Under the pieces are notes generated by a model that did not search any database, was not told the origin of the DNA, and saw only the letters and a list, made by a program, of their open reading frames with translations. The position numbers and the translations under genes are program-made. 64,000 nucleotides of DNA, taken from assembly GCF_026210795.1 (NCBI RefSeq), contig NC_089439.1, positions 3,968,001 to 4,032,000 on the forward strand, in the 5' to 3' direction. The DNA is from Rhizophagus irregularis (Eukaryota; Glomeromycota; Glomeromycetes; Glomerales; Glomeraceae). Shown piece by piece: positions 17,528 through 58,019 of this stretch (positions are counted from its first letter, which is position 1; the number at the start of each line of letters is the position of its first letter).

Positions 17528-22281
<4,754 letters not shown>

Positions 22282-23777: not shown

Positions 23778-26320
23778 TCAAGTCTCGAATAATGCGTTCA
23801 TTTGTTCCCTATCTTCTTCAGATAATTTAGGTTTACTTGGATTACTGGATAATCTTCTCTTTTTTTCATTTTCAACAGCTGCTTGATGAGCTTTAGCAGC
23901 CTTATCAACTATATTTTCTACTTCTTTAATGATTTTTTTGAAAGTTTTGTACCATGATGGATCGTCATCTTCCACATTATTCTTCCCTTGTTGTATATTT
24001 ATTATATAATTGTTTTGAATAACATTAACTATGGTAACTTTGTCTAATTTATTATAATCGGGTGGCAACATATTTTTTAATGTACTTATATCATATTCAT
24101 TATAAGGAGAGGGTAATAATTCTTTTAATGCAATTAAATTCTCATCATCCTTTTCACTATAAGGGGGTGGTGGTGGCATTTCTTCACCATTGATTTCATA
24201 ATCATCTAGACACAATTCATCAACCAACTCTCCTGCAACATTATAACAATTATATAGATAATTTTTTGTTGAAATATTGAATAAAGTCTTCGTATCATTC
24301 GCATCATTCGCATCATTCGCATCATTCAAATCAGTTGCAATTTTAACTGCATTATCTGAAATAACTACATCATCCAAATAATTCTGATGTTTAAGTATTT
24401 CATCAATATCAAAAATTACTTCATAATTATCTAAATATAATGAATCGTCAAATTCTTCTATAAGTTTATAATAGTAATATTGATTTTCTGAAATTTTGGA
24501 CAAATCCTTCACATCGTTCACATCTTTCACAACTGTACCATTTGAAATAAATACATTATCATCTAAATGTTTCTGGTGATTAAGTATTTCATCGACGTCA
24601 AAAATCACTTCGTAATTATCCAGATACAATGCATCATCAAATTCTTCTATAAGATTATGATTACAGTACTGAAGTAAATCCTTTATATCCTTCGCATCAT
24701 TATTCACATCTTTTGTATCTTTTACAACTGCATTATTTGAAATAAATACATTATCATCTAAATGTTTCTGATGAATAAGTATTTCATCGACGTCAAAAAT
24801 CACTTCGTAATTATCCAGGTATAATGCATCATCAAATTCTTCTATAAAATTATGATTACAATATTGAAGTAAATCTTTTACTTCTTTCGCATCGTTCACA
24901 TCATTCATATTATCGTCATTTACATCTATTATATCTTTTACAACCGCATTATTTGAGATAATTACATCATTATCTAAATATTTCTGGTGATTAAGTGTTT
25001 CATCAACGTCAATATTCGCTTCAAAATTATCAAAAATATCTATATACAAATTCTGACGCTTAAATATATTCTCCTTAACAACTTCAATCTTCTCACTCTC
25101 AGCGTCATTATTCTCTTCAACTTCATTGTTATTTGTACCGTCAGTATCTTCCACCTCGATAGTTGGTACTTCCTCGATGGATGATTCCCCAATGGATGAT
25201 ACTTCCTCGAAGTTTGGCTCCTCCTCGATATTTCTCTCTAAAATTTCTTTTAGCTCCATTAAAATCGATCTAACTTCACTTCCGTCTCTAATTCCTTCTA
25301 AAATTTCTTTTAATTTCGATAAAATAGGTTCAATCTCGTCTTTTCTTTCGCTTTCTTCCTTTAACATTTCTTTTAATTTCATTAAAATCTGTTCATCAAT
25401 AGCTTTACCCCGTAACGATACAATATATTCAATTTGAAGTTTTCTTTCATTTTCTTTTCTTTCGATTTCCTTTCTTTCGATTTCCTTTCTCTCGATTTCT
25501 TTTCTTTTTTCTTCAAATATTTCTATTAGCTCTGAAAAAATATCCTCAACACTTTTATTCCTTTTATTATTTGATAGCTTACTATATCGTTCATTAATAT
25601 CATTAATATGCTCATCAATTTTACGTCGCTCTTCAAATAATTTGTTTACTCCTTCAACAATTTGCTTAATTTGCTTACGTTGTTGTTGATGTTCTTTTTG
25701 GGGATTCGTTAAAGTAGTTATTAATTTTTTAGAAAAACTCAATCTACGAGTTTTCTCCCCAGGAGAATTAGGAGGAGTAAGGTGAGTAGAGTCAATAGAG
25801 TGAGTAGAATGAGTAGAGTGAATAGTGTAAGTAGAGCGAGTAGAGTAAGTAGAGCATGAAGATAAAGGTCGTGAAGAAATATTCGTAGAGCTAGTCGTAG
25901 GGTCAGAAGAAATAGACCAGCTGTTGAATTTCGATTCGATCTACAAATAAAAATTTATTTCTCGTTATAAAAAAAGATTATATATATTTAGATTTTTTTT
26001 TTAATTTTACCTCTTCTTTGAATTCTTGTTTTGTGGTTTTTTCTTTTATAACATATAAAACTTCTACGGCCTTGAAAGTTAATTGTTTTTTTACGTGAGT
26101 TTCGATTATTTCATTACAAAAAGGAATTATTTTTTTAATATATTTTTTTATTTGAGGGAAAAATTCTTCAAGAATTCGTTGGATTAAATGTAAATATCCG
26201 ATTAAAAGAGTATCGATATTGTCAGGTAAAGAATATCCTAATAGTTCCCTAAAAAAAAAGAAGGAAAAAAAAAGGTATAATGGTTACCAATAATTATTAA
26301 CTTTTTTTTTAAAAAAAAAG

Positions 26321-26368
<48 letters not shown>

Positions 26369-27481
26369 ATTCATACATACCCTCCAGATTTAAGCACTTT
26401 ATATTCAATATTTCGGTAACTTGTATTCTTCTCTTTTACTCTTTCAAATTCTTTGATTGATAATTTAAATAATTTCTTGGAAAAATTTTTAATATGTTCT
26501 AAATTTGGTTGTTGACGTAATGTAAAGTACTTTTCGTGCATTTCTCTCCAATCATTATACCATTTCCCAGCGGAATATTCAAACTAAACGTTTTTTAAAA
26601 GTGGCGCAGCGTTAAAAATTTGTGGCGAAGTAAAATAAAATATTAAAAAAAAGATTTTTTTTTTTGTTACTTACGTCCAAAACATCAGTTAAGGAAGAAA
26701 GAGCGGAAAAATATTCACTATTCACAACATTAACAACAGTTTCTAAAACTTTACTACTTGTTGATACAAAGATATCAAGATTTGATTGATCATCTTTGAT
26801 TTTCCGCAAACAATTTCGAATTTCACGAAGTCTGAATATGACATTAGCATTAATGAATTTCGTATTTCTATACGTATTTCTATAAGTTGACCAAAATTTC
26901 GCGAGAGATTTATAAAAAGAAGTACGAATTTCTGTATTAATCATTTCAACAGATTGAGACAGTACGTATAATACTGATGACATAACGTTTCTACATATAA
27001 ATGTGATTGTGTTAAAAGGAAATGAATCGGTATTTGAACGACTTTACGTACTATAAAATTGTACTTACAGAAAAAGTTCCAATTGTGCTATAGTAGATTC
27101 ATCATAACATTCCCATTTATGATCCGAAAGATGTTTTGCCGCTTTAATAGCGAAATCTATCACTAAATAGAAAAAAAAACCAAAATTTAGAATAATTTTA
27201 AATGATAAAAACACACGATATAAAGAAACCATACCTTTCACATCTTCAATCCTCTCATTAGGACGACTTATTGAATCTTCCATTAACCGATTTATTTTAT
27301 GTAAAACATAATTATAAATTCTAAAATAGTATGTTTTCAAAAAATAAAAATTTAGTATATACGCTACCATTTTCTTAATCTTTTATTTGTATACTTACAA
27401 ACTATTTTTATCTGCCAACAATTTAAGAATTTCATTATATTCTTTAAATCGTGTTTCTGATATTATTGTGTTTGAAGACAT
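23778..27481 (-). CDS. Array copy A: seven-exon helical/acidic-repeat protein, unknown family
   Basis: Exons complement(23778..25940, 26011..26248, 26381..26583, 26675..26990, 27069..27162, 27235..27320, 27399..27481) give 1060 residues, intron phases 2,1,2,0,2,0. Exons 1-6 (1-340) are helical and conserved with the other copies, including MSSVLYVLSQ, LREIRNCLRKIKDDQSN, YKVLKSGG and YSLPDNIDTLLIGYLHLIQR. Exon 7 begins Ser/Thr-rich, then a Glu/Lys/Arg coiled coil, then four imperfect repeats of about 60-65 residues built on EEFDDALYLDNYEVIFDVDE ... HQKHLDD ... VVKD (about 24,220-25,060). Next come a PPPPPYSEK segment with a PPxY motif, an Ile/Val-Asn/Gln patch and the conserved tail SWYKTFKKIIKEVENIVDKA. 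There is no signal peptide or enzyme motif. Function unknown; a scaffold or signalling role is only inference. Confidence 0.8.
26321..26366. repeat. 46-base poly-A run in an intron of copy A
   Basis: An uninterrupted adenine run inside the intron between exons 5 and 6 (oligo-T on the coding strand, just before the polypyrimidine/acceptor side). It is one of the longest homopolymers in the window, and assembly length may be inexact. Confidence 0.85.
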
Positions 27482-29937
27482 TTTTTTTTTTTTCGAAAAG
27501 AATCTGCTACTGAATAGTATAAATAACTTTTTGACGTTGTTACACGAATGACACTATTGTTGTTTAATCATGCAGTTGACGTCGGGGTAAATTGACTTGA
27601 CTATAATTATTTTTAATTACCAAATGGCTATTAGTATTTTTAATAAACTTAGTAGCGTGGAAACTTATTTTGTTTTAGCATTGATAGGAGGAAAGTTCTC
27701 ACAGCAATAAAGAATTAGGAAAGAATAGTAAGCAATTATATGCACATTATCATAAACAATCTTGATTGAACCTTGATTAAATAAGTAAACTTGAAAGAAA
27801 TAAATATATGTATATAATTTAAATATCGGAATTTCGGCAATCCCCTACTTCTTATTGCATCTAAATTATTCTTTATTCTTATTATTATATCATTTTAAAA
27901 AATATATATAGTTATTCCTAAAAAAAAAAATATGCCCTGTAAATAAATACATTATAAGCGAATAAACGAATTCATTTTTTATTTTTTATACCTAGTTTCA
28001 AATTAAACTAAAAAAGGGGGTTCGAACCAAAATCAATTAATCAAACGCATATTTTTTAGATGAATTCTCCAAGAAAGATCCCATCAATAACATAAAGTAA
28101 ATCCATTATCCGAATAAGTTTGACTTACGCATATCTAATAATGTACAAGTATGTTTACATTGTGTACTACGTAATATTTTATGCAACTCGCGGCAGCATA
28201 CATATGAAAGTATAAGTATTAAAATATTAGATGCACAGACTTTTGATCAGAAAAAATTATTTGGTAAAAAAGTCTCAAAATAGCGGGATTTTTTTCTTAA
28301 AAAATAAAATTAAGTGGAGAAAAGATTCGATTTTAGACCCAAAAACAGGTAAAAAATTATACCACGAGCATCAATATTAAGTATAACAAAAAAAAATTCC
28401 CGAAACTTTGATTTTCAAAGTAATTATTAATTATAAAAACTTTTAAAGAACCCCTTTTCAGAACTGATGGGAAAAAAAAACTTTGCCTCCCTAAAATATA
28501 AACACTTTTCTTTATTTATTTCCCCATGCATAAAAATCATACGAAAATAATTTATCTATGAGTTGATTATTTCGTTCTAATGAACATAAATGGTAAGGAA
28601 GCCTTTTTTTTGTGTTTCATAATATCATGGGACTCGTGTTACATCAATTATAAAAAAATACGATTTCATAAGAATTACGTAGAACGTAGATAAGATTGGA
28701 ATCAAACATCTTACTAATCGAAAATTGAATCGAATCAATTTAAATTGATTATCTGAACCAAGAAAAATTAATTTTCTTTTTTTGAATGTTAATTTTAGAA
28801 ACTTTAAATGCACTATTTTTGAAGCAAAAAACTGATCGACGTCCGACATACTAACGCGCAGATATCTTTCATAATAAGTGTGCCATCAAAAATTCAGAAT
28901 ATGATTCCATTAAATTGGTTGATTTTTGACTGGATCGAATCGCGACTTTTAAAAAAAAAATGATAATTGAATTTTGTCGCAATTACACAAAATGTTTTTA
29001 TAAATCCCCACAAAACTTGCCATATTCTATGTAGAATCCAGATGAATGATTTGGTACTGCCAATTATAAATCATCACTAAATAATGTCAAAGTATAAATT
29101 ATTAGATTAGGATAAGATTCTTTTTACTCTATTTATATTTTTTAATGTTGAATCTTCTAAAATTTCACCTTCAAAGAGTACTGTATTTTCGATTTCATAA
29201 TATAATATACTGTATATATATAATATTACTTCAAATGAAATAAACGCACAAAAAAAATTTTACTTATTATTATTCGCAAATTTTTGTTTATATAAGTGTA
29301 GATTCAAAACATGCAAGATTTTAAAATTGAATTGAAGAGTTTTTCCTACTTTGTCATATGCAGTATTGTAAAAGTTTGAACTAAAATTAGCTTATAATGG
29401 TTACTACTAATTACAGTATAATATTTCTTTATTAATATCATTATTTCTTTTTTATTTAACTATTACTAATGTCTCTCTTACTTTATTTTTTTTATCTTAA
29501 TTATTTTATAGTGAATTGGCATATTTTTTCTCGTTTGTGCTTCAAAGATCAGTCTTCATGTCATTCCGACTTCCCGAGTTTACGAAAAGTCTCCAATGCG
29601 ATAAACGTGAAATATAATACGCACGCGAGAATGTCCGGTATGTCTAGGAAACGTTCGGGAAATATCTAAAATGTTCGGAAAATGTACCGAAACGTGAAAG
29701 ATTCCTTTCATAGGGATTTCATTATTAAAAAATAAAATCAATAAATTTTTTATATTACATCAAGAGATTAGTCAAATAAATTATATTGAGCAGTATACGA
29801 CGATTTTTTTTTATTTTCTATGGTTAAATTATTTATATCTTAAATCTACTTAAAAAATGATCTCTAGATTTAAAGTACTAAACAACTTTTTCAATTCAAC
29901 AATTATCTCTTTTCTCTTCACACTTCACTAATTATTA
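27482..29937. other. 5' flank of copy A, duplicated spacer DNA
   Basis: No gene is seen. Much of this DNA is related to the 5' flanks of copy C (41,037-43,330) and partly of pseudogene B (34,721-36,720). Shared phrases include tttacattgtgta, tagatgcacaga, a gttctaatgaacataaatgg-like stretch, ttattagattaggataggat-like sequence and a gcgaaaagtc...gataaacg block. Short frames here are not conserved between the flanks. Confidence 0.6.
28125..28260. repeat. Conserved upstream block, copy A version
   Basis: It carries tttacattgtgta at 28154-28166 and ttagatgcacaga about 75 bases on. The same ordered phrases lie upstream of copies B and C. It sits about 670 bases before the copy A start codon. Confidence 0.75.
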
Positions 29938-30126
29938 TTAACAGCAGCTTGATGAGATTTAATGATTTCATTAAAAGTTTTGAAAATGATTTTTCGTCAT
30001 ATCAGTTGCGCATTATCTAATTGTATATTATAATTATTTTGAATAATTAATTATGGTGAGATGTATCTAATTTGTATGCTATATTTACTAGTATAAGGAG
30101 AGGGCAATGATTCTTTTAGTGCAATT
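29938..30126 (-). pseudogene. Array fragment: 3' end of an A/C-type copy
   Basis: The plus strand reads aacagcagcttgatgag, then a mangled version of the tail-helix codons, then tataaggagagggcaatgattcttttagtgcaatt. This is the complement of the A/C segment ALKESLPSPYN. Deletions and frame changes remove coding capacity. It directly abuts the segmental duplication starting near 30,251. Confidence 0.7.
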
Positions 30127-30250
30127 GATATATTAGAATTCAAGTTTTCTAAAATCGAAATAAATTTTAATTGAACTACTTTACATAATAATAACTCATC
30201 ATACGAAGGTCTTTCAATATTTATTTGTTCTCGCGTTTGTAACGAGTGAT

Positions 30251-31015: not shown

Positions 31016-34000
31016 TACGGTGCAGAACCTCTATAATAGGAACTTAAAAAAATTTAAATAAAATTTGATTCTATGATTGAATTTTAATTTTATAAAAAGA
31101 ATTAAACTTTATTTGTTAAAAGGAATCAATTTAAAAAATAAAAAAAAGTCTCAATTTTTTAGATTATGTAAGCATCACGTGATACATATATTAGCCAATC
31201 AGAAATTAGGATTTTATTAATTATATGATATAAAAATTTATATAATATATTTGTTTATTGTATTTCATTATAAACTGATGATTGATGAATCAGGTACATG
31301 ATAATGAGATTTATATTTTATTATATGCATTTTTTGGTAAAATTACTTAATTTTTGAATTCTTTTGTTTATAAATTTATCATCTGAACTGTCTTTTAAAT
31401 ATCATTATTTATAACATTAAATTAACCTATACTTAAATAATTTTGTTTATTAATTTTTTTTTTTTTGCAATATTAGAACTTTTTTTTCTTCTTAGCATAT
31501 TGAAAAAAAAATCTGAAGTAAAATAATAATTAATATTACATTAAATGTGGCTAAAAAAGATCTGTAAAGCAAAAATTAGACTAGTCTCAATTTTAACTAA
31601 ATTTTGTCAGTATATTTAAATTACAGATTTTTAAACAGCTAAAACTTAGCCAAAATTTAATTTAGAAAAAAAATAACCGATAATTTTTAAAGCTAATAAT
31701 CATATCTATAAAAATTATCGTTTAAATTTTTTACTTTAATATAAAAAATTTTTTTTTTAGAAATTTATAATCAATCAATTGTTACTATACATAAGTAGTT
31801 GAGTATAGAGGTTCTGCACTATAGAGATTATCTATTTCATCAACAAACTCTTCTGCAACATTATAATAATTATATAGATAATTTTTTGTTGGAATATTGA
31901 GTAAAATCTTCGTATCATTCGTATCATTCGCATCATTCAAATCGGTTGCAATTTTAACTGCATTATCTGAAATAACTACATCATTCAAATAATTCTGATG
32001 TTTATCACCATCAGAAATTACTTCACAATTATCTATATTATCATCCTCAACATCATATTTATCTTTATACAATGTATCATCAAATTCTTCCGTAAGATTA
32101 TAATTACTATGTTGAAGTAAGTCCTTTGAATCACTCACATCACTCACATTATTTACATCTGCGCATTTTGAAATAATTACATTATCATCCAAATTTTTCT
32201 GATGTTCTGTAAGATTATGAAGATTATGATCACTATAGTGAGATAAATCCTTAACGTCATTCATATCATTCACTTCATTTACATCGTTTACATCATTTAC
32301 ATCATTTGCAACTGCATTATATGAAATAATTATACCATCTGAATCATTCTGTCGTCTAAGCATTTCATCGTCAAAAATATTATCTAGACGATTCACATTT
32401 ACTACCGCATCTGTATTATCTGGAATAGCTACACCCCGATTAACAACTTCTACTTGCTCAGCATCATCTGCGTCATTTGTATTGTCAGTGCTGAATATTT
32501 CCTTCTCTGTGGACGGTTCTCCTCGATGGCTGGCGCCTCGATAATTGATACTTTCTCGGTAGTTGATGCCTCTACCTCGATAATTGATACTTCCTCGGTG
32601 GTTGATGTCTCCTCGATGATTGATACCTCCTCAAAGATCGGTTCCTCCTCGACATTTCTTTCTAAGATTTCTTTTAATTTCGATAAAATCGATCTAATTT
32701 CACCCCTTTCTATTTCCTTCTAAAATTTCTTTTGATTCGATAAAATCAGTCCAATTTCATCTTTTCTTTCACTTTCTCCCCTAATACTTCTTTTAATTTC
32801 AATAAAGTCTGTTCATCAATAACTTTATCCTCTAACGATTTGGTATATTCAATTTTATCAATTTTATCCTTTCTCTCGTTTTCTTTTCTTTTTTTCTCTA
32901 AAATTTTTTTTATTTTCGATACAATCGAATACTCGTTAATAGCTCTGTCCTCTAATAATTTACTATATTCACTTTTAGTTTCATTAATATTCTTGTAAAT
33001 TTTACGTCGTTCTTCAAATAACTTGTTACTCTTTCAATAATTTGTTTACGTTGTTTCTGAGGATCTTTTTGAGGATTAGTCTTTGGAACCGAAGTGGGAG
33101 GAGTATCAGGAGTAGTGTAAGTAGAGTAAACAGTGTAAGAAGATAAAGGTCGTGAAGGAGTAGTCATGGAAGTTGAAGTGACAGGAAAATTAGACCAGAT
33201 TTCGAAATTCGATTAAAAAATTTAATTTTGGTTATAAGAAAAACATGCATATACTGTATATATGTTTATTTATAATAAAAAGGATTTAATTTACCTCATC
33301 TTTGATTTCTACTTTTTGAGTATTTTCTTTTATAACATATAGAACCTCTACAGCTTTAAAAGTTAATTGCTTTTTCACGTGAGTATTAATTATATCATCA
33401 CAAAAAGGAGTTATTTTTTTAATATATCCTTTTTTCTGAAGGAAGAATTCTTCAAGAATACGTTGGATTAAATATAAGTATCCGATTAAAAGGGTATCGA
33501 TATTGTCAGGTAAAGAATATCCTAATATTTTCCCAAAGAAAAAAAAAAGAAAAAGAAGTTTTTAAGTAAAATTTGAAAAAAAGAATGATGAAATTTATTC
33601 TTACCCTCCAGTTTTAAGAACTTTATATTCAAGGTTTCGATATTTTGTATTTTTTCTTTTTACTCTTTCAAATTCTTTAGTTGATAATTTAATCAATTTC
33701 CTAATAAATTTTTTAATACTATCTAATTGAAGATTATTTTCCAAAGATTGTTGATGTAATTTAAAATAAATTTCATGCATTTCTTTCCAATCATCATACC
33801 AAATCCCAGCGGAATATTCAAACTAAATTAAAATGGCGCAGCGATAAAAAATTTCAATATGTGGCAATGCAAAATTAGATATAACATTTTGAAAGAAAAA
33901 AATTTTTTTTTTTTTGTTACTTACGTTCGTAACGGAAGAAAGAGCGGACAAATATTCGCTATTCACAACATTATAAATAGTTTCAATAGCTTTACTATTG

Positions 34001-34720
34001 ATACAAAATTTTCAAGATTTGATCAATTATTCGCAAGCAAGTTCGAATTTCACGAAGTCTGAACATAATATTAGCATTAATATAATTTGATTTTCTGTAA
34101 ACTTTCCAGAATTTTGAGACAGATTTATATAAAGAAATACGAGTATTTGAATGGATCATATTAACAGATTGAGAAATTATGCATAATGCTAAAGACAGGC
34201 GTTTCTAAATATATAAAGTGTTTAATGTGAATTGGTTAAGCATTTGAATAACTTTACGTACTATAATTTATAGTAGCATATTTGAAAAAAGTGTACTTAC
34301 AGAAATAATTCTAATTGTACTATAGTTGAGCCATTGTAATGAGTCCATTTATAATCCGAAAGATGGTTTGCAGTTTTAAGAGCGAATTCTATCACTAAAT
34401 GTATGAAAAAAAAAAGTTAAAATAAAGAACTAAAATGATAAAAATCGTATAATATAAACAAAATTACCATTCTTATCTTCAATTCTTTCATTAGGATGTA
34501 CCAAGTCTTCTATTAAATGAATTATTTCACTCAAAGCATAGTTATAAACTCTAAATAGGTAATGTTTTCAGGAAAGAAATTAATTTAGCAAATAGCACAT
34601 ACTCTCCATTTCTTTTTTTTTTCATTTGCATACTTACAAACAATTTTCATCTGCTAATAATTTGAGAATATCATGATATTTTTTACTTCGCGTGTCTAAT
34701 ATGGCCATGTTTGAAGTCTT
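30966..34720 (-). pseudogene. Array copy B: multiply disrupted pseudogene, chimeric 3' end
   Basis: The exon order matches A and C. Lesions: the start codon is AAG (34718-34720), with a later in-frame ATG at 34708. Small deletions of about 10 and 4 bases in exon 4 (33,990-34,030) shift the frame. Acceptor AGs of exon 6 (near 33,530) and exon 7 (near 33,213) are lost. One base is missing early in exon 7 (near 33,025). More frame changes lie before the acidic region, which stays open at 31,785-32,396. An 804-bp element (31,018-31,821) interrupts the 3' end. Beyond it, 30,966-31,015 encodes the tail of an F-type copy (VIPEVEKEQIS), not an A/C tail. The helical tail SW.KTFKK is absent. It is not expected to make a full product. 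Confidence 0.82.
31018..31821. mobile_element. Pogo-like non-autonomous DNA element, 804 bp
   Basis: The ends are inverted: cggtgcagaacctctata at the left and its near-complement tatagaggttctgcacta at the right. The core gtgcagaacctctata matches perfectly over 16 bases. TA dinucleotides flank both sides (31,016-31,017 and 31,822-31,823), as expected for a TA target-site duplication. The termini resemble the CAGT...AACCTCTATAA ends of pogo-type (Tc1/mariner) elements (established family knowledge). The interior is AT-rich and has no transposase frame. It interrupts pseudogene B. Confidence 0.65.
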
Positions 34721-35824
34721 TTTTTTTTTTTTAAAATAAGCAAAAATATTATTGGTTTGTCAGACTCATATAGTAATCATGCATTGCATTATATAAAATA
34801 AGTAATCTTGAATAAGGTATCAGATAAGTTTTCTTTTGGACATTTCCTATTGTGTTGCATATATAGTAATGTTCGGGCGAACCTCGGTTGTTCCGAAACA
34901 GCCGAAACCTGCTAATTTTCCGTTCAATCCACCAACTGAGCAGATTTACTCGAAATCACAAGTGTGATCAAGTCTTATACAACTTAACTAGTTATGATGT
35001 TTCTACGAAAATCATTTACTGTTATAAGAATCAACGGTAGATTGCAAATTATTTTTAAAATTCAAGCATCCGTATATATTTAGAAGTAAGATTTATATAA
35101 GTTCCCATTTTAATAACTTGCTCCCAAATATTAATCTTTTATTTTTAAATTATCCTATTTAATCAAAGAAATAAATAATTTTTGAAATAGAATGTTTTTC
35201 AGGTTGGTTTGACATAATATCTACGTAAAATTTTTAAACGTTATAATTAGATGATATGTTCTTTAATTTAATTAGTTTCATTTTTAGTAAATAATTAACT
35301 CTTTCTTGATGAATTAAGGTTTCAACCGCAACCAATAATTTGATTATATCCAAAGTCCAAAGCGTCAATTTTATTCAAGATAAGAATGTCGCCATAAATA
35401 TAACTATAATTACATTAATTAACTATGGGAAGTTTAATAATACTAAACAATTTACTTTATAACGATTTGAAAAATACCAGAAGAGATATTATGTAGTTTA
35501 CTATTTAAAAGTGTACTGCTGCCGAGGGGAAAAAGGAATTACTTTTACACTTTTGAATCATATGATTTATAAGCCAAATAAAAGTTTAATATTTGTGTTT
35601 GGTTTCGCCGGGTTTCGGAAGTTTCGGCGGATATTAAGTCAAGGTTTCACCAAAACCATTAACATATAACATTCAAAATAAATAAAAGAATAGTTATTAC
35701 ATTATTTAAAAAAAAATATGTCCTATTAATATATTATATAAGCGAATTTATTTTCTAATTTTTATTCGAATAAATTCACAAAGATCTATTTAATTTTCGT
35801 TTCACATAACTTGTATTCGAAGCA

Positions 35825-35960
35825 CATAGGACTACTAATAATTTACAAGTGTGTTTACATTGTGTACGACGTACGTAACATATTCAGGAACTAGAAGTAT
35901 TAGATGCACAGTCTAAGTCACATATAGTGAATTTTTTCTTTAAGAATAAGATTAAGATTT
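35825..35960. repeat. Conserved upstream block, copy B version
   Basis: It holds tttacattgtgta at 35854-35866 and tagatgcaca at 35901-35910, in the same order as the A and C flanks. A partial deletion between the two phrases makes it shorter. Confidence 0.7.
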
Positions 35961-37155: not shown

Positions 37156-40100
37156 TTACATATGATTGTATTCCATAGGCATGCTTGCGTTTATAGCAGC
37201 AGCTTCCTTTTCTTTTTCAGATAATTCAGGTTTACTTGGATTACTAGATAATCTTCTTTTATTATCATTATCAACAGCAGCTTGATGAGCTTTAGCAGCC
37301 ATATCAACTAGATTTTCTACTTCTTTAACGATTTTTTTGAAAGTTTTGAACCATGATGATTCGTCACCTTGAACATTGTTCTCTTGTACACCGTTCTCTT
37401 TTACATTGTTCTCTTGTACATATATAATATAATTTTTTTGGATAATATTAATTATGATATTATTATCTAATTTATTATAATTAGGTGGTAATATATTTTT
37501 TAACGTACTTATATCACATTCGTTATAAGGAGAGGGCAACGATTCTTTTAATGCAGTTAAATTCTCATCATCCTTTTCACTGTAAGGAGGAGGTGGTAGT
37601 ATTTCTTCTCCAATCATTTCATAATCAATTAGACATAATTTATCATCAAACTCTTCTACGGAATTACAATAACTAAATAAATAATTTTCTGCTGAAATAT
37701 TGAGTAAAATCTTCGTATCATTCGTATCATTCGTATCATTCGTATCATTCGTATCATTCGTATCATTCGTATCATTCGTATCATTCGTATCATTCGTATC
37801 ATTCGTATCATTCGTATCATTCGTATCATTCGTATCATTCGTATCATTCGTATCATTCGCATCATTCGCATCATTCAAATCGGTCGTATTATCTGAAATA
37901 ACTACATCATCCAAATAATTCTGATGTTTAAGTATTTCATCAACATCAAAAATCACTTCATAATTATCTAGATATAATGTATCATCAAATTCTTCTATTA
38001 AATAATGATTTCTGTATTGAGGTAAATCCGCCACATCATTCACATCATTCGCATCTTTTACAACATTCACATCGCTCACGACTACATCATATAAAATATT
38101 TACATTATCATCCAAATATTTCTGATGTCCAAGTATTTCATCAACATCAAATACTATCTCATAGTTATCTATATACAATGTATCATCAAATTCTTCTATA
38201 AAATAATAATTATTGTATTGAGGTAAATCCTTCACATCATTCATATAATTTACATATTTTACAACATTTACATCACTCTCGACTGCATCATATAAAATAA
38301 TTATATTATCATCCAAATTTTTCTGATGTCCAAGTATTTCATCAACATCAAAAATTATTTCATAGTTATCTAGATACAATGTGTCATCAAATTCTTCCGT
38401 AAGACCATAAATACTATATTGAAGTAAGTCCTTCGCATCACTCACATCACTCACATTATTTACAACTGCGCATTTTGAAATAATTATATTATCATCCAAA
38501 TATTTCTGATGTTCGAGTATTTTATCAACATTAACTATATTCACTTCATTTACATCGTTTACATCATTTACATTATTTACAACTACATTGTATGAAATAA
38601 TTATATCATCTGAATAATTCTGACGTCTAAGCATTTCATCGTCAAAAATATTATCTAGATGATTCACATTATTCATATCATTTACTACCGCATCTGTATT
38701 ATCTGGAATAACTATATCCCGATTAACAACCTTAATCTCTTCTATGACATTAGCATTTGTATTGTCAGTGCTGGATATTTTCTTCTCTGTGGGCGGTTTC
38801 TCCTCGATGTCTGGTACCTCGATAATTGATACTTCCTCGGCGGTTGATGTCTCCTCGATGGCTGGCGCCTCCTCAAATATTGGTTCCTCCTCGACATTTC
38901 TTTCTAAGATTTCTTTTAATTTCGATAAAATCGATTTAATTTCACCCCCTTTTCTATTTCCCTCTAAAATTTCTTTTAAATTCGATAAAATCAGTCCAAT
39001 TTCATCTTTTCTTTTACTTTCTCCCCATAATACTTCTTTTAATTTCAATAAAGTCTGTTCATCAATATCATTACCCTCTAACGATTTGATATATTCAATT
39101 TTATCCTTTCTCTCGTTTTCTTTTCTTTTTTTCTCTAAAATTTCTTGTAATTTCGATACAATCGAATGCTCATTAATAGCTCTGTCCTCTAATAATTTAC
39201 TATATTCAGTTTTAGTTTCATTAATATTCTTGTAAATTTTACGTCGTTCTTCAAATAACTTGTTTACGCTTTCAATAATTTGTTTACGTTGTTGCTGAGG
39301 ATCTTTTTGAGGATTAGTCTTTTTTATTTTTGGAAAACCTAATTTACGATTTTTTGGAATCGAAGTGGGAGTATCAGGAGTAGTGTAAGTAGAGTAAACA
39401 GTGTAAGAAGATAAAGGTCGTGAAGGAGTAGTCATAGGAGTTGAAGTGACAGGAAAATTAGACCAGTTATCGAAATTCGATTCAATCTATTATAAAAAAT
39501 TTAATTTTGGTTATAAGAAAAACATGCATATATATACGTTTATTTATAATAAGAAGGATTTATTTTTTTTTTTATTTACCTCATCTTTGATTTCTACTTT
39601 TTGAGTATTTTCTTTTACAACATATAGAACTTCTACAGCTTTAAAAGTTAATTGTTTTTTCACATGAGTATTAATTATATCATTACAAAGAGGAGTTATT
39701 TTTTTAATGTATCCTTTTATTTGAGGGAAAAATTCTTCAAGAATACGTTGGATTAAATGTAAGTATCCGATTAAAAGGGTATCGATATTGTCAGGTAAAG
39801 AATATCCTAATATTTCCCTAAAAAAAAAAAGGTTTTTAATGGTTTCAGTAAAATTTGAAAAAAAAAGAACGAAAATGAAATTTATTCTTACCCTCCAGTT
39901 TTAAGAACTTTATATTCAAGGTTTCGATATTTTGTATTTTTTCTTTTTACTCTTTCAAATTCTTTAGTTGACAATTTAATTAATTTCCTAATAAATTTTT
40001 TAATACTATCTAATTGAAGATTATTTTCCAAAGATTGTTGACGTAATGTAAAATAAATTTCATGCATTTCTTTCCAATCATCATACCAAATCCCAGCGGA

Positions 40101-43863: not shown

Positions 43864-46800
43864 TTAGATTTGAAGTGCAACTTCTTCCTTTTCAATTGTT
43901 TTTTCAATTATTTCTTCTTTTTCTTTTTCAACCATTTTTTCAATTATTTCTTCTTTTTCAACCATTTTTTCAATTATTTCTTCTTTTTCAACCATTTTTT
44001 CAATTATTTCTTCTTTTTCAACCATTTTTTCAATTATTTCTTCTTTTTCAACCATTTTTTCAATTATTTCTTCTTTTTCAACTATTTCTTCAATTATTTC
44101 TTCATCTTCCTTTATTTCATTAACGGATAAACTAGAATTATTATCATATAAACTAGATCTTAAAACAGCCTCCCTGTGAGCTTTAGCGGCTTTATCAACA
44201 ATATTTTCAACTTCCTTAACTATTTTCCTAACGGTTTTTAAGAATACTGAACCTTCATAATCATCTGGTTGTTGCGGTTGTTGCACATTATTTACATTTT
44301 GGACATTTTGGATAATATTATATTGATTTATTTGATTTATTTGATTTATTTGATTTACTTGATTTACTTGATTTACTGTAACAATATTTTCTATGTTCGG
44401 ATTATTGCTTTCCTTCACTACTGAATCTTCTGAATGAGTTAAAATTATTTCAGGAAGGATTACTTTCTCACTAACACTATGTACACTGTCCCCATCATCA
44501 CATTTTCTACATTCTTCTTTCTCATTCTCTTCAACATTCATATTAATTTCGTCTTTCTTAAGTTGTTGTTCTTCTGAATGAGACTCGGACGAATTTATAT
44601 TCTCAACAACAACATTATTTTCATCATTTTTCTCTTTCTTATTCTCCTCAACATCTATATTATTATCTTTCTTAGGTTCTTCCTCTTCTGAATGAGACTC
44701 GGATGAATTTATATTCTCAACAACAACATGGTTTTCATCATTTTCCTCTTTCTCGTTTTCCTCAACATCTATATTATTATCTTTCTTGAGTTCTTCTTCT
44801 TCTGAATGAGACTCGGAAGGATTTATACTCTGAATATCAACATTATTTTCATTGCTTTCCTTTTTCTCGTTCTCTTCAATTTCTAGATTATCGCTTTTCA
44901 CTTCTTTTAAATGAGGATTCATTTCATTTTCATTAATTTCTCTAGTCAAAATTGTTTCAAAAGGTTTTACTTCGTCTTCTTCCTCTTTAGTATTGTCTAC
45001 ACTCTTATCGGGATTCATTTCAACTTCACTAATTTCTTTAGTCAAAACTGTTTCAGCAGAAGATTCTACATCGTCTTTAGGTTTGTTTATATTCTTATTA
45101 ATGACTTCCTCGTTATTATCGTTTTCTTTATGTACATTAATTTCACGAGTATTTTTGTCACAACTCTCTTCAATTTTTTTACTTTCTTCTTTTATTTCAA
45201 AATTATTTACATCCTTATTAGTGATTTTCGCGTTATTATCACTTTCTATATATTTATATATAATAATTTCGCGAGTTTCTGGAGTATTATATATATTCTT
45301 GATCTCGTAATTATTATAAATAATTGGTTCAGGTTCAGAAACGAATGGAATTTGTGGTAATGAAGGTGATGATGCTTCTTTTCTTTTTTCCTCTAAAATT
45401 TCATTCAATTTTGCCAAAATTGAATCTGAAAAATTATCAGAATTTTTATCAATAGCTTTATCTTCATCTTTAGTATTCACTAGTAATTCGTTATAATGTT
45501 TCTTAGTATGCTCAATATCTTTTTTAATCTTAAGTCTTTCTGCAAACAATCTTTTTACGTCATCGATTATACGTTTACGTGTACATTGTTGTTTTAAACT
45601 TGATAAAGATCTCGTTACTTTTGTTGGAATTTCTCGAACGCTTATTCTACGACGTTTTTTTGATTTTTCCTCTTGGGATAAAGGAGTTTTTTCCTCTTTG
45701 GATAAAGAAATCTTTTCCTCTTGAGATAAAGGAGTTAAAGTACGAGTTGGAGTATTTGAGGCAGGATTATAAATAGATTGTGGTGGGGAAGAAAATGAAG
45801 TATATGCCGAAACAGGAGTATCAGGAGGCATGTTATATTGAAAAGGTTCTCCATTAGGCGAAGAAGTAATGATGTCATTAGGTTTATTTTGTGAAGAAGC
45901 ATAATGAAAAGAAGGAGGAGCGGATAAAGATCGTACAGGAGGAGTTGGTGGAGGAACATGATAACTGGACCATGTTTCGAAACTTAATTCAATCTAATGT
46001 TGTTTAAATTTCGTATGTTAATAAAAAAAAAAAAGTTTTAATAATTTAATACATGTAATCAAATATTTACCTCGTTTTTGATTTCTACGTTTTCAGTACT
46101 TTCTTTTATAAAATATAAAATTTCTATAGCTTTAAATGTTAATTGTTTTTTCACATGAGTTTCAACTATTTCATTACAGAATGAAATTAAATCTTTAAGA
46201 TATTTATTTAATTGAAGAGGGAATTTTTCGAAAAGTTTTTGAATTAATTGTAAGTATCCAAATAAAAGAGTTTCAATATTATCAGGTAAAGAATATCCTC
46301 CTATTAAGCTGTAAATAATTAAATAAATAATAATTAATTAATTAATTTTATAAAAAAAAAAGTATATAAACATATTATAACTAAAAAAAAAAAAAGTATT
46401 TACCCTCCAGATTTTAGCATTTTGTATTCAAATTTTCGATACTTAGTATTCTTTCTTTTCACTCTTACGAATTCTTTCTTTGATAATTTCATTAAATTTC
46501 TATAAAACTTTCTAATGGATCTTGATTCGGAAATATTTTGTGAACATAATAAAAAAAATTTTTCACGTCTATCTATCCAATCGTAATACCATTCCCCAGC
46601 AGGATATTCGAACTATTGATGTAGAGAATAAAATAAATAAGTAAATAAAAATAAATAAAATTTATTTATATAAATAAGTAAAAAAAGTTGTGTAAGTAAT
46701 ACTCACATCTAAAACTTTAATAAAGGAACCAAAAGCGGCCAAATATTCTTTTTGAGCAACGCTAACGACAACATCAAAAAAATTACCGCCTATCTTGAAT

Positions 46801-47612
46801 GCTAAATCAGCATTAGATTTGTCATCTTTAATCTTTCGTAAACAATTTCTAATTTCACGAAGACTGAATATGATATTTGAGTTAATTATTTTCGTATTCC
46901 TATAAATTGCCCAAAATTTTGAAATTGATTTATAAAAAGTAGCACGAGTCTTTGAATCTATCATTTTAATAGATTTGGAAAGTATATGCAACACTGAAGA
47001 CATGGCGTGACTACATAAATAAATTGAAAAATGATTAAACGATTAGTAAAAGTGAAATGAGTCAACATAATGAATTATTTTGTTAAATTAAACTTACAGA
47101 AAAAATTCTAGTTGCGCTATAGTTGAATTATCATAACAAATCCATTCATAATTTGAAAGATGTCCTGCTGCTTTAAAAGCAAAGTTCACCACTAAAAAGA
47201 AAAAAAAAAAATAGTTAGGTTAAGCGAAGTAAATCACGTGATATTAAAACGAAGGGGTAACGAGAAAACCATACCTATCTTATCTTCAATATCCTCTTTA
47301 GGACAACCAACCAAATTATCCATTAAACGAATAGTTTCTTCTAATGCATAATTATATGCTCTAAGAAGAGATAATATTTTAAGAGAAAATTTAGTGTGTG
47401 TGCGCATATATATTATATTTTTCAAAAAAAAAAAAAAATCAAAATCAAAAAAAAACCTATAAACACACTTACAAACTATGGTCATCTGCCAATAACTTGA
47501 GAGTCTCATCATATTCTCTAATTTGTATATCCGATAATCTAGTTTCTAAAATAATTGAATTATCATCATTTAAATCTGAATGTTCACTATGAATGCTATG
47601 GATTGAACTCAT
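43864..47612 (-). CDS. Array copy D: seven-exon helical/repeat protein, unknown family
   Basis: Exons complement(43864..45993, 46071..46308, 46404..46612, 46707..47010, 47098..47191, 47275..47360, 47473..47612) give 1066 residues; phases are as in A and C, and exon 1 is longer. Exons 2-6 keep the family signature (LREIRNCLRKIKDD; YSLPDNIDTLLFGYL-like). Exon 7 has diverged: Ser/Pro-rich start, coiled coil, then three 38-residue Glu/Asn-rich repeats (NINSSESHSEEEE ... DNNIDVEEN). A run of Val-Asn-Gln and Ile-Asn-Gln triplets follows, ending in NIIQNVQNVNNVQQPQQP. The family tail TVRKIVKEVENIVDKAAKAHREAV comes next (positions near 44,165-44,240), then a C-terminal extension of five 10-residue units (MVEKEEIIEK). 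No PPxY motif is seen. Function unknown. Confidence 0.8.
43913..44102 (-). repeat. 30-bp coding tandem repeat at the 3' end of copy D
   Basis: Five near-identical units encode MVEKEEIIEK, a heptad-like charged helix extension found after the conserved tail only in this copy. Confidence 0.9.
44313..44379 (-). repeat. 9-bp coding repeat (gatttattt/gatttactt)n in copy D
   Basis: It encodes (Val/Ile-Asn-Gln) triplets, six in a row, extending the Asn/Gln-aliphatic patch that precedes the tail in all copies. Confidence 0.88.
44530..44835 (-). repeat. 114-bp coding tandem repeat in copy D
   Basis: Three units of about 38 codons, each with SESHSEE, DNNIDVEEN and DENxVVVENIN phrases. High similarity between units suggests recent unequal exchange. 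Confidence 0.85.
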
Positions 47613-49439: not shown

Positions 49440-50290
49440 CGTTCTAAACTATCTTTCTTCTTCGTTCCAAAATTGATTACGTCATTAATAATACGCTTTC
49501 GTTTTCGTATACGTTGTTGTTGCTGAAAAGATCTTGCTGCTCTTGTTAGAATTTTCCAAACATTTCATTTTATTCCATTGTTCTTGTTGTTTACTCTCGA
49601 AATGAAGAAATAATGTGGTAGTGAGGAAATCAGGAAAATGCCGAAATAAGGGAAAGTGAAATGTCATCAGATTGATGTGGATCAGAAGGTAAAGGGAGTA
49701 CTAATATTAAATCAATTCAATATAATGTAGTATTGTATCATATGCATTTTTTTAGTTAAAATATAAACAGGCCTCATGAAATTATTTCTTTAAAATATTG
49801 TTCATGTTAGAAAAAATTCTCAAGAAGTCGTTGAATTAATTACAAGTACCCGAGCAAAAGAGTATCAACATGATCAGGTAACAAATATCAAATCAAGAAA
49901 ATTTTATGAGTAAATTAATTTAAAGCAAAAGAATAAAGAATATTACCCTCCAAATTTGAATATTTTATATTCAAAATTTTGATATTTTTTTTTTTGCCCT
50001 TTCAAATTTTTTAGTCGATAATTTAAATGAATTTTTAATTTTCGCGCGTGTCTTCCTATCATAATCCATTCACTGGCAGAGTATTCATAAAAAAATTCGT
50101 CATTGAAGTGGCGCAGAATAAAAACTTTTGTGTCACTTACATTCAAAGTAGTTAAATATTCACATTGTACAATGGGAAAAATTATCGATTACTTTACATA
50201 TTTGGTTAATAAACAATTCAACGACTAAGATTCAAAGATTCTTGTTACTATAAACTTCTGCATCAATCAATTTATATTTAGTAATTAATA
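49440..50290 (-). pseudogene. Array copy E: degraded fragment (parts of exons 4-7)
   Basis: In minus-strand order, it keeps pieces of exon 4 (near 50,134-50,290, including the donor cacttacattcaaagtag), exon 5 (49,945-50,100, ending in accctccaaattt, the family GGA-GG donor) and exon 6 (49,787-49,890, tcaagaagtcgttgaattaa). It also keeps the start of exon 7's coiled coil (49,475-49,560, aataatacgctttcg ... ttgttgttgctg). Frames are broken, and exons 1-3 and the rest of exon 7 are gone. The exon 6 and exon 7 pieces look closest to copies D and F. Confidence 0.75.
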
Positions 50291-54147: not shown

Positions 54148-54803
54148 ATAACTAGCTCCTTTGATTCACTCTTACTATTACGGAATATATTTTACTTATT
54201 CTAGCTCGTAGAATCAATCACCTAGTCACATTATTGTCAATAGGAAAATTTTCATCGCACGTGTATATAAATATTTTTTTCTTCACGCCACAATACCTAC
54301 AATACCTCTCGTTTCCGCCATTTCTTTCATCACTGCGATTGAAAATGCACCACTCACCCATTATAGAATGGCAGTACTGATACTTTTAATAATTTTACAA
54401 AAACAAGAGGTTATTGGTTATCTTTAGGAAGTGTATAGCAAACAAGATAGGGAGACGAGATTGATAGAAGAAATCTTATTTATCGAGTATACAGGAGCTT
54501 CAATGCAATATTGAAGCAAAAAAATAGTATTTAGGAATAAATTTAAAAATTAAAAGTGGTATATTGTTTTTATTAATCAAATTTAAATTTACAAAGAAAT
54601 TAATTAAAATTTTTAAATTACTATATACTGTATAAATTTAACTATTTTTTTCATTAGTTACATTAAGCTTTAGCATAATACATTCAACCTTAATTTTTTT
54701 TTTAAGTTATTTTAAAGAATCATAATTCTAAGTATTTTTACTATATCAACTTTTTACGATATTTGTTCCTTTTCAACTTCAGGTATTACATTAACAGATG
54801 TAC
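54148..54803. repeat. Segmental duplication, right copy (matches 30,251-31,015)
   Basis: This is the 3' flank and last codons of copy F. It aligns throughout with the left copy except for small indels and the missing 154-bp inverted-repeat element. Confidence 0.85.
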
Positions 54804-57800
54804 TAGAATTATTAGCAGATTTCAAAACAGCTTCTTTATGAGTTTTGGCAGCTATATCAACAATATGTTCAATTTCTTTAATAACTTTTTTAATTGTTTT
54901 AAAGATTGTTGATTCTGATTCTAGCTGCTCTGGCTGTTCTGGCTGTACTATTTGATTAACAGTGTAGTAGTTTATTATATTAAGGTAAGTTTTTTCATCA
55001 ATTTCCTGATTGAATTTTTCCACATTTCCTTTTTCAACTTCTTCATTTCCTTTTTCTTCTTTAATTATAATAGTAGGTATATTATTATTTTTACTTTCGC
55101 TATCTTCTGCATTTTCTTCTTCAACGTTATCACTCCCTTGTGCATTTTTTTCAGCTTTTTCACTTTCTTCAATTTCTTCAACTTTATTAATTTCTTCAAC
55201 TTTTTCAACTTCTTTAACTTTTTCAATTTCTTCAACTTTTTCTACTTCAACTTTTTCAATTTCTTCAACTTCTTCTACTTCTTCAACTTTTTCAATTTCT
55301 TCAACTTTTTCTACTTCAACTTTTTCAATTTCTTCGACTTCTTCTACTTCTTCAACTTTTTCGATTTCTTCGACTTTTTCAATTTCTTCAACTTTATTAA
55401 TTTCTTCAACTTTTTCAACTTCTTCAACTTTTTCAATTTCTTCAACTTTTTCTACTTCAACTTTTTCGATTTCTTCAACTTCTTCGACTTCTTCGACTTC
55501 TTCTACTTCTTCAACTTCTTCAATTTCTTCGACTTTTTCAATTTCTTCAACTTTTTCAATTTCTTCAACTTTTTCAATTTCTTCGACTTTTTCAATTTCT
55601 TCAACTCTTTCAATTTCTCCAACTTTTTCAATTTCTTTAACTTTTTCGTTTTCTTCTACATTTTCTTCAACTTTATCACTTTCTTTAACTTTTTCGCTTT
55701 CTTCTTTTTCAATTTCTTCAACTTTTTCACTTTCTTTAACTTTTTCGTTTTCTTTTACATTTTCTTCAACTTTATCATTTTCTTTAACTTTTTCGCTTTC
55801 TTCTACATTTTTTTCTTCAACATTTTCATTTTCATTTTCAAATTCCTCTGAAGATATAGAATTATTATCACTTTCCTTTCCATGTCTTTTAAGGATTTCT
55901 TTATCCTCTTTACTTTTCTTTTTCTTATCCTTTTTTTTAAGCGAAGGAAAATTTGAAAAGAGTGATATAAACCTCTTATTGGGTGAAGGTGGTGAAGGTT
56001 CATATGGTGGTGGTGCCTTCTCTTCTAAAATTGTTTTTAGTTTTGATAAAAGATCCTCATCAACGATTCTATTTTCTTTATTATCTAATAGCTTTTCAAA
56101 TTCTGTTTTAATTTCATAAATATTATTTTCGGTCTTACGTCGATCTTTAAATAACTTAATTACATCATCAATTATGTTATCAACGTCAATGGTATTTGTA
56201 ACACTAAATGATTGAACTCTTTGAAAATGTGCTGTAAATTTCCGAACACTCGATATTTTACTTTGTCGATCTTGATTTTCTTCTATAGATGAAGCAGAAG
56301 GGGATTGTGGTGGCGTAGAAAACGAAGTAAAGTCCGAAGCAGCAGAGTCAGGTGGGTTAAATTGAAACGAAGAAGGCGAGACAATGAGAATACTATCGGG
56401 TTTAAATTGCGGAGGTTGCGAAAGGTTATAAGTAATGAGACCTTTAAAATACTGAAAAGGTTTAATGAGTGTAAGAAATTAAAAATAATAAAAAAAAATA
56501 TACATATATAATAACATTAATAATAATAATAATAATAATAAAAGGTTACCTCATTGTTAACATTTCCTTTTACGACATATATGATATACAAAATTTCTAT
56601 AGCCTTAAATGTTAACTGTTTTTTTATGTTTGTTTGAATTATTTCATTACAGAATGAAACTATTTCTTTATCATATCCGCTTATATGAGGAAAAAATTCT
56701 TCAAGAAGCCGTTGAATTAAGTGTAGATATCCGAGTAAAAGAGTGTCAATATGATCAGGTAAAGAGCAATTAATCATTGCACTAAAATAGTAATAACAAA
56801 AAATTTTAGATGTTAAGTAAATTTAAAATGAAAAAAAAAACAGAAAAAAAAAACAAAAATTTTTAATTATTTACCCTCCATATTTTAACATTTTATATTC
56901 AAGATTACGATATTTCGTATTTTTTCTTTCTACCCTTTTAAATTCTTCATCTGATAATTTAATTAGTTCTTTACAAAAACTGATAGCTCTTTTTCCAAAA
57001 TTTTTTCTCGAAGATTTTTTGCGCAATTTAAAATATTTATTGCGAATACTTTTCCATTCATAATACCAATCCCCGGTTGCATACTCGAACTGAAAAAAAG
57101 TATGCATATATTATTATAACACGTTTTGAAGTGACACAATAATGTGCTAAGTAAATGAAAAAAAGGTGCGTGTTACTTACGTTCAAGAGTTGAATAAAGG
57201 TAAGAAAAGCAGACACATATTCTTCCTGGAGAACATTGATAATAGTTTCAAAACTTATTTGTACGTTAGACTTATACGTCTGATCATCTTTAATTAGTCG
57301 TAAGCAATTTCGAATTTCACGGAGGGAGAACACAATATTTGCATTAATACACTTCGAATTTCTATAAATTGCCCAGAATTTAGAAATGGACTTATAAAGG
57401 GAATCGCGAGTATCTGCTTCAAGCTTGTTAACAAATTTGGAGAGTATATGCAATACCGAAGACATGGCATGGCTGAAGAAAGAATTTTAGGAGTCGTTCG
57501 TTAATCACTACATGTATTGAAATTTAATAATAACGATAAACAATGTATATTTACAGGATAAGTTCGAGTCTCGCAGTAGAGTCTCCATAATATTGCCATT
57601 TGAGATTTGAAATATGTCCCGCCGCTTTTGGAACAAAAACTTCCATTCCTAAAAGGAAAAAAAGCTTTTTTAATCGTAAGGTTAAGATTACATCACGTGA
57701 CATAAGGAAGAAAGAAATCATACCCATTTTAATATCCTCTTTAGAACAATCAGCCAAGTTTTCCATTAACGTAATTGTTTCTTTTAGAGCATAATTATGT

Positions 57801-58019
57801 GTGCTAAAATTGATGAAATTTAGTTCATCATCAAACATATTCCCTAAACAAACGCTTGCAGAAAATATAATTAGAAACTCACATGTTACTTTCATTATCC
57901 CCTAATATTTTAAGAATATCTTTATATGTTTTGGTCGGTATTTCACCGATTAAATCTAAATGTTCATCGTTAGTAGAGGTGGATATTGAAAGAGCGTGTT
58001 TTATAGGTGAGGATGACAT
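54754..58019 (-). CDS. Array copy F: seven-exon helical/Lys-Glu-repeat protein, unknown family
   Basis: Exons complement(54754..56451, 56550..56781, 56875..57089, 57181..57472, 57555..57648, 57724..57803, 57883..58019) give 915 residues; phases 2,1,2,0,2,0 as in the others. The last exon (566 codons with stop) has no ATG over most of its length, so it is found only by splicing. I checked its repeat region codon by codon and saw no stop. Exons 1-6 hold the family helices (MSSVLHILSKF, LREIRNCLRLIKDDQ, CSLPDHIDTLLLGYL). Exon 7 has a Ser/Pro start, coiled coil, an APPPPYEPSPP segment with a PPxY motif, a basic KKKDKKKKSK patch, and more than 200 residues of EEIEKVEEVEKVE-type repeats. A short patch (LNIINYYTVNQIVQ) and the tail TIKKVIKEIEHIVDIAAKTH follow. 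The acidic EEFDD repeats of A and C are absent. Confidence 0.78.
55144..55830 (-). repeat. Degenerate coding repeats (ttcttcaactttttcaat)n in copy F
   Basis: Mixed 6-, 9- and 18-base units encode Val/Ile-Glu-Glu and Val/Ile-Glu-Lys triplets. All unit lengths are multiples of three and the minus frame stays open. The sequence also gives long but meaningless plus-strand frames (Phe/Asn and Ser/Thr rich). Confidence 0.9.

Follow-up and report, generated by a model that had tools for sequence, protein, structure and literature searches.

Four intact genes, arranged head to tail on the minus strand of contig C11 of Rhizophagus irregularis, encode proteins that we regard, with moderate confidence, as cytosolic scaffolds or adaptors and as an offshoot of a RING-like/TPR family (RT family) of the same genome. 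The window analyzed was a 64,000-nucleotide stretch of this contig, and positions without a contig name refer to it. By hhalign, the N-terminal ~340 residues of the array proteins and the N-terminal domain of the RT family are remote homologs. An orphan array is thereby tied to a large ligase-like TPR family, and a testable module emerges that consists of this domain, an acidic spacer, and a tail helix. No recognized description of either the array or the RT family was found in the literature.

Gene models and decay within the array

Splice models built from the sequence reproduced the array of four intact seven-exon copies claimed in the preliminary description of this DNA, each with an open frame, seven exons on the minus strand, and a dN/dS below 1. 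Copy A (23778..27481) encodes 1060 aa through exons 27481-27399, 27320-27235, 27162-27069, 26990-26675, 26583-26381, 26248-26011, and 25940-23778, which are separated by 6 GT-AG introns. Copy C (37156..41036) encodes 1116 aa and comprises exons 41036-40954, 40866-40784, 40709-40616, 40520-40217, 40109-39892, 39817-39580, and 39486-37156. Copy D (43864..47612), with 1066 aa, is composed of exons 47612-47473, 47360-47275, 47191-47098, 47010-46707, 46612-46404, 46308-46071, and 45993-43864, and copy E (54754..58019), with 915 aa, of exons 58019-57883, 57803-57724, 57648-57555, 57472-57181, 57089-56875, 56781-56550, and 56451-54754. All 24 introns predicted across these copies begin with GT and end with AG. 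The predicted models share the intron phases 2,1,2,0,2,0 and an exon 3 of 94 nt in 4/4 copies, and exon 6 measures 238, 238, 238, and 232 nt, exactly as first described. The protein encoded by exons 1-6 of the other three copies is 58, 56, and 54% identical to that of copy D, far above chance. In all six pairs of intact copies dN/dS was 0.31-0.43, at a dS of 0.40-1.04, from which purifying selection is judged to act on the array.

A fifth copy, B (about 31827..34729, minus strand), aligns to copy C with 91% and 93% DNA identity in two main blocks. Its exons 1, 3, 5, and 6 align to C gap-free, while exons 2, 4, and 7 contain gaps of lengths not divisible by three, with stops in addition in exon 7, which bears out its earlier designation as a pseudogene. 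Two fragments had been claimed besides. One of them stands, namely fragment F (49777..50188, minus strand), in which parts of exons 5 and 6 survive, interrupted by stops; the other, two small pieces at 29931..30123 on the minus strand resembling the 3′ part of exon 7 of copy C (its PSPY region and tail), is more likely the detached 3′ end of copy B itself. Together with the conserved ends and the repeat-bearing middles described below, the pseudogene and the remnants uphold the proposed picture of a birth-and-death array with fixed ends and a variable center.

The N-terminal domain and its relatives

The four N-termini of the array were compared by hhalign with an RT profile of 10 rows from 9 loci, giving a probability of 98.0 and an E-value of 2.4e-13 over 305 columns; reversed columns gave 0.2, and the best of 30 column shuffles gave 2.2%. 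The same relationship appeared in a single-sequence search with copy E (E ≤ 10), which located 42 places; half of them, 21, belong to the array, and the other 21 (E 0.0095-1.54) lie outside it. Each outside match is weak when taken alone, and all 21 coincide with rows of the RT search, the query of which was itself one of these 21 matches. In that RT search, 49 of the 95 rows aligned over 420 or more of the 460 residues; these long rows are dispersed in the genome, 45 of the 49 are without a stop, and 41 of those 45 lie in open frames of at least 900 aa. In a tree of 12 rows the array formed one group; as 7 of the 9 inner branches were open and two of the RT rows very long, no finer grouping was drawn from it. 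AlphaFold predicted exon 4 alone to be helical at low confidence (mean pLDDT 46.5).

Strong Pfam matches to TPR were obtained for 5 of the 6 RT open reading frames scanned, the exception being L065, scanned over part of its sequence and without a match, and generic TPR-type NCBIfam matches were obtained in two RT proteins and none in exon 7 of copy D. Following the domain, a RING/U-box-like CPI...CxH...CxxC motif was seen by eye in 5 RT frames. Two of the RT frames, L059 and L060, matched RING at an E-value of 0.04-0.05, under the Pfam cut-off, and four further RT proteins gave no RING match at E ≤ 0.01. Since this motif is degenerate and subthreshold, the ligase activity of the RT family is only putative. 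Pfam searches of exon 7 of A, C, D, and E detected neither a RING/U-box nor a TPR match. The array had been called unrecognized; this is correct in that no named domain was matched, with no Pfam family above the curated cut-off and no PDB match, but is no longer so for the N-terminal domain, given its homology to the RT family. Nor did the domain searches return any well-known housekeeping family. Subthreshold Pfam candidates, such as Cut8 (E 0.006) and Tti2 (E 0.016), appeared in one member each and inconsistently, and were rejected. Among viral contigs 90 pattern stretches were found, and among bacterial and archaeal contigs 25, of which none was confirmed as a relative. Linkage to the mating type was also considered and found no support, as both Homeobox_KN (PF05920) matches lie on C12 and the array on C11; PMC11414155 places HD2 on chromosome 11, but the contigs used here may be numbered differently.

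Acidic middle and tail helix of exon 7

Near the start of exon 7, a coiled-coil-like stretch conserved among the copies was noticed by eye, a feature absent from the preliminary description. It is followed by the middle, where a repeat scan located on the minus strand a 195-bp tandem repeat (65-aa unit) in copy A (24345..24893), a 201-bp repeat (67-aa unit) in copy C (37906..38466) with a further 9-bp array at 37712-37876, a 114-bp repeat with a 38-aa acidic unit in copy D (44512..44891), and 39.7 copies of an 18-bp, KVEEIE-like repeat in copy E (55147..55833). The repeats of D and E are indeed distinct, as had been stated for every copy, but A and C carry related repeats. The net charge per residue of the middle is −0.17 (A), −0.18 (C), −0.17 (D), and −0.24 (E), the last counted from a fixed offset since the coil pattern failed to match in E, versus +0.01 to +0.02 for the N-terminus. 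Exon 7 also contains PPxY motifs, two each in A and C, one in E at a different position, and none in D. Such counts were reached in 2 (A), 3 (C), and 30 (E) of 5000 shuffles of exon 7, a test that is generous because prolines cluster.

The tail of copy D contains a conserved C-terminal helix at 44164..44244 on the minus strand, and sequence matches to this tail were located at 23957-23811 in A, 37356-37216 in C, and 54909-54826 in E, all on the same strand. The helix was predicted with pLDDT block means of 83-94 over its core, and the model is without a strand; amyloid-type motifs often escape structure prediction. In the 45 residues preceding the helix, the N+Q fraction is 0.22-0.51 in the four copies, versus 0.10-0.15 over exon 7 as a whole.

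The preliminary description also did not include the tail-bearing pieces of exon 7 that lie elsewhere in the genome, at C11:4190025-4190189 and, on C22, near 135.1 kb. A further weak match at C7:2738515 (E 0.71) was taken as chance. The piece on C11 is predicted to belong to a kinase/MACPF-like gene, L057 (C11:4.19 Mb), whose kinase/MACPF frame would connect to the tail exon by way of a 21-nt mini-exon within C11:4.190-4.194 Mb, and at the 3′ end of which the 3′ part of exon 7 of copy D recurs as a shared block of 741 bp with 92.4% identical DNA. This tail copy, which lies past copy E at a distance of 164 kb (178 kb from the tail of D and 158 kb from the end of the window), is predicted to be in frame and covers the tail of D and part of its middle. 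Over 231 codons, dS is 0.090 and dN 0.019 (Fisher p 0.0003-0.0014, depending on rounding), and this synonymous excess suggests that the tail copy is under constraint. The low dN of the block is partly owed to the constraint on D itself. The ends of L057 and copy D diverge past the helix, and genome searches located the tail in one kinase gene only; the tail copy could be a chance fusion made by one event at a breakpoint.

Proposed role, alternatives, and comparison with known systems

In the scaffold or adaptor reading, the N-terminal domain would dock to a partner, which may be itself, the RT proteins, or a ligand shared with them. The middle would serve as a charged spacer in which length and charge outweigh the exact sequence, and the tail as a second docking or oligomerization element. 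An array protein, being a RING-less relative, might then act as an adaptor of the RT proteins or compete with these ligase-like proteins, and the PPxY motifs of A, C, and E, absent from D, might attract a ubiquitin ligase with a WW domain. The middle would change through turnover of copies and slippage of repeats, with the two ends remaining constant.

The PPxY motifs also allow a narrower interpretation, in which the proteins are RING-less ubiquitin adaptors that bring an Rsp5/Nedd4-type ligase to the target of the N-terminal domain in the manner of alpha-arrestins. The rarity of the motif counts in shuffles and the RING-like motif of the related RT family, seen by eye, speak for it, but copy D is without the motif, its position differs between A/C and E, and the shuffle test ignores proline clustering, so that we consider this unlikely. 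Of the recognition, self/non-self, and host-interaction roles suggested in the preliminary description, self/non-self recognition through templated assembly, on the model of HET-S/NWD2, appears improbable. Here, the N/Q-rich aliphatic stretch before the helix would be an amyloid-like motif common to an executor, L057, and the N-terminal domain would be the effector or sensor part. The N+Q enrichment in all four copies and the stretch that copy D has in common with L057 are consistent with this, and PMC4344463 and PMC4518210 describe fungal signaling pairs with common C-terminal motifs. Against it, Pfam gave no HeLo or HeLo-like domain in the N-termini of A, C, D, E, and 4 RT rows and no other family above cut-off, no NLR was found among 10 flanking open reading frames scanned, the tail occurs in a single kinase gene, and its model lacks a strand, though such motifs often go unpredicted.

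Drift offers another account, namely that the copies are relics that the RING-TPR family left behind, without any selected function. One pseudogene, the remnants, and the divergent middles would suit such relics, but four full frames, 915-1116 aa long and with their junctions intact, and the dN/dS values given above make this doubtful. Repeat variation and tandem birth-and-death are features that fit effector families, and the proteins could on these grounds be effectors that are secreted to interact with the host and whose variable middles are rich in repeats. However, hydropathy alone revealed no signal-like hydrophobic N-terminal stretch in the array proteins, which counts against classical secretion: on the Kyte-Doolittle scale, the best 10-residue mean in the first 40 aa was 0.44-0.81; over the full length, the best 19-residue window reached 1.25-1.72. 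Since the homology of the array is moreover to a TPR family, this role is very improbable.

The scaffold or adaptor reading can be extended, though only as a long shot, to one modular network of intracellular recognition and cell death in arbuscular mycorrhizal fungi, of which the array, the RT family, and the kinase/MACPF-like genes would be three tiers. The RT proteins, as TPR sensors, would pair with array scaffolds through the common N-terminal domain, and the array would pair with kinase/MACPF proteins through the tail, a transferable plug leading from the sensor side to the executor side. If the domain and the tail are docking elements, they indicate partners for the expanded signaling-like families of this genome, for which we found no described role. 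If the array proves polymorphic between isolates, it would be a candidate locus for the control of hyphal fusion or nuclear coexistence.

Among the systems compared, the RT family (e.g., L060 735-3872, minus strand, 1045 aa) has an N-terminal helical domain collinear with that of the array. In most RT rows this part lies in one long frame, with a break in L064, whereas the array genes are divided into 7 exons, and in place of the RING-like and TPR parts the array proteins carry the coil-like stretch, the acidic repeat middle, and the tail helix. The predicted 3′ exon of L057 carries the 3′ part of exon 7 of copy D, like the array tail; its kinase and MACPF-like N-terminal part is unlike the array, making the tail module the sole common part. 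Arrestin-related Rsp5 adaptors have PPxY motifs, as do 3/4 array copies, for which an adaptor role is a proposal; they differ in their arrestin domain, which Pfam did not match in the array, and in that the intact copy D is without PPxY. HET-S-type proteins are distinguished by a HeLo domain and a recognized amyloid motif, neither of which was matched in the array, nor is an NLR present among the flanking frames scanned, but their overall plan of a folded N-terminal part, a long linker, and a short conserved C-terminal element that recurs in a second, dissimilar gene is the same as in the array.

Gene models and divergence of the array

The four intact genes of the array (copies A, C, D, and E) were each modeled from the sequence with seven exons on the minus strand and identical intron phases. 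Exon 3 measured 94 nt in every intact copy, exon 6 measured 238, 238, 238, and 232 nt, and GT-AG borders were found for 24 of 24 introns, so that the arrangement, phases, and exon sizes proposed in the preliminary description were reproduced. The open frames comprise 1060, 1116, 1066, and 915 aa for A, C, D, and E, respectively, and identity to copy D over exons 1–6 is 54–58% in an alignment of 390 columns. Copy B belongs to the C type but is disrupted, and F retains remnants of exons 5–6. The dS values over exons 1–6 ranged from 0.40 (A–C) to 1.04 (D–E), with dN/dS of 0.31–0.43 in all six pairs of intact copies (NG86); for exon 7, the A–C pair gave dS 0.55 and dN 0.23. The intact copies show both divergence and constraint, and the sole younger duplicate is B, which shows 91–93% identity to C.

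The window covers positions 3968001–4032000 of contig C11, and its GC content is 23–33% (2-kb steps). The array is flanked by an NTPase_1 gene (window positions 12599–13336, plus strand), a starch-synthase-like glycosyltransferase (14903–16732, minus), P-type cation ATPase exons (18364–20886, plus), and an enoyl-CoA hydratase (60558–61418, minus). Beside pseudogene B, at about 30618–30778, lies a ~160-bp dispersed repeat with inverted matches to itself; it is a foldback or MITE-like element with at least 81 genome matches, the same places often being hit on both strands. A 77-bp unit is present in two tandem copies at 5197–5352 (97% matches).

The N-terminal domain and the RT family

One genome of 146,748,485 bp (32 contigs) was searched, for which all match counts are lower bounds. 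Exons 4 and 6 of copy D gave at least 5 and at least 6 matches, respectively, at E ≤ 1, none of those listed being outside the array. Searches of Pfam and the PDB with the array N-terminus were empty or gave weak matches, in line with the earlier view of an unrecognised family, but profile–profile comparison matched this N-terminus to the RT family, a large family of the same genome. In the RT ORFs read so far, the N-terminal helical domain is followed by a RING/U-box-like motif and, after it, by TPR repeats. Comparison of 4 array sequences with 10 RT rows (from 9 loci, in a family with at least 49 long rows) gave a probability of 98.0 and an E-value of 2.4e-13 over 305 columns, collinear from residue 29 to 365 of copy D, while profile reversal lowered the probability to 0.2 and 30 shuffled profiles reached at most 2.2. 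When copy E alone served as query in a permissive search, at least 42 places were detected, with 21 rows in the array and 21 elsewhere (E-values 0.0095–1.54); all 21 listed matches outside the array overlap RT loci, though each alone is weak. The divergent RT members L063, L064, and L065 also possess the N-terminal domain. In a tree of 12 rows, the array formed a single group (100/100) with a long branch of its own; the majority of the remaining branches lacked resolution, and those of two RT rows were very long.

The RT search yielded at least 95 rows, and 49 listed rows cover 420 or more of the 460 residues; 45 of the 49 are free of stops, and among these, 41 belong to open frames of at least 900 aa. 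The RING motif was read by eye; Pfam RING models gave E-values of 0.04–0.05, under the cut-off, and a second scan, of four RT proteins, gave no RING match at E ≤ 0.01. At least 45 RT places have an N-terminal domain free of stops, many on contigs C14 and C23; on C14 the family lies at about 2.86–3.45 Mb, and it is also located on C4, C7, C8, C12, C20, C23, C24, and C28. No description of the RT family was found in the literature searched.

Exon 7 and copies of its tail elsewhere

Conservation of exon 7 is mainly in two parts: the first, close to the exon start, looks coiled-coil-like by eye, and the second comprises the C-terminal tail helix and the residues immediately preceding it. This helix is the sole piece modeled confidently; exon 4 modeled alone gave no confident structure. 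Tandem repeats with periods of 195 (A), 201 (C), 114 (D), and 18 bp (E) lie between them. The conserved ends noted previously stand, as exons 1–6 and the tail region. The claim that the repeats differ in each copy goes a little too far, since those of A and C are mutually related, unlike those of D and E. The net charge per residue of this middle, which takes the place of the RING-like and TPR parts of RT proteins, is −0.17 to −0.24 (that of copy E being delimited by a fixed offset), and the N-terminus is neutral. Since the middle is acidic in all four copies despite unlike repeats, it may be charge and length, and not sequence, that are preserved here. Copies A, C, and E carry PPxY motifs, whereas D has none, and hydropathy suggested no signal-peptide-like or membrane-spanning stretch in the array proteins.

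When the tails of D and A were used as queries, the matches beyond the array included C11:4190025–4190189, which is 96% identical over 55 aa to the tail of D and lies 164 kb past the point where copy E starts and 178 kb away from the tail of D. At this locus (L057), a block of 741 bp shares 92.4% identity with copy D exon 7 and starts within a few bases of a predicted 3′ splice site. Shorter matches, collinear with it, extend into the 3′ flanking sequence. A 966-aa ORF directly upstream contains a protein kinase domain (E-value 2.5e-12) and a weak MACPF-like match below the cut-off (9.7e-5), and is predicted to join the tail copy in frame through a donor, a 21-nt mini-exon, and an acceptor. 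Its relative L066 on C28, with a MACPF-like match above the cut-off, has the same donor and a 21-nt mini-exon, followed by other sequence that starts another kinase-like domain (by eye); judged from this one relative, the L057 tail therefore looks like an acquired replacement. Between the L057 tail and D, dS was 0.090 and dN 0.019 over 231 codons, a comparison that stops at the helix, beyond which the two sequences end differently; the frame was kept throughout, the method inserting gaps in whole codons. For the synonymous excess, Fisher p is 0.0003–0.0014, by rounding of 10.5 changes of each kind. These results support the view that the tail copy is translated at L057, although part of the signal comes from D's own constraint.

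PF22693, a fungal MACPF-like family, has at least 102 genome matches at E ≤ 10, not all above the cut-off. Several form opposite-strand pairs at a spacing of about 3 kb, as a ~660–700-aa MACPF ORF and an ORF of ~900 aa or longer, including C11:4192025/4195234, C28:2810655/2813735, C28:1799064/1802204, and C23:1508165/1511458. In the two pairs read (L057 and L066), a MACPF-like match is found in the longer ORF, which in L057 also contains the kinase domain. These pairs look like a repeated two-gene unit.

Another tail place, near 135.1 kb of C22, matched with E-values of 0.089 for the tail of D and 6.1e-9 for that of A. It is an A/C-type exon 7 fragment adjoining unrelated genes (L058, C22:131000–139000), with a glucosidase-like gene on one side and a transposase-like ORF on the other, both assigned by eye. 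This fragment and the L057 tail copy have similar ends (EIVDKKR) that differ from those of the array, so both may derive from a lost or unseen variant.

Proposed role of the array proteins

The array is best read as a seven-exon offshoot of the RT family that is RING-less and TPR-less and encodes scaffolds or adaptors. Both ends of the proteins would dock, with the middle as a charged spacer between them, and the proteins may oligomerise or have some connection with ubiquitin or cell death. A role in self/non-self recognition, as proposed in the preliminary description, would be a less probable reading that fits this architecture and the presence of the tail in a kinase/MACPF-like gene.
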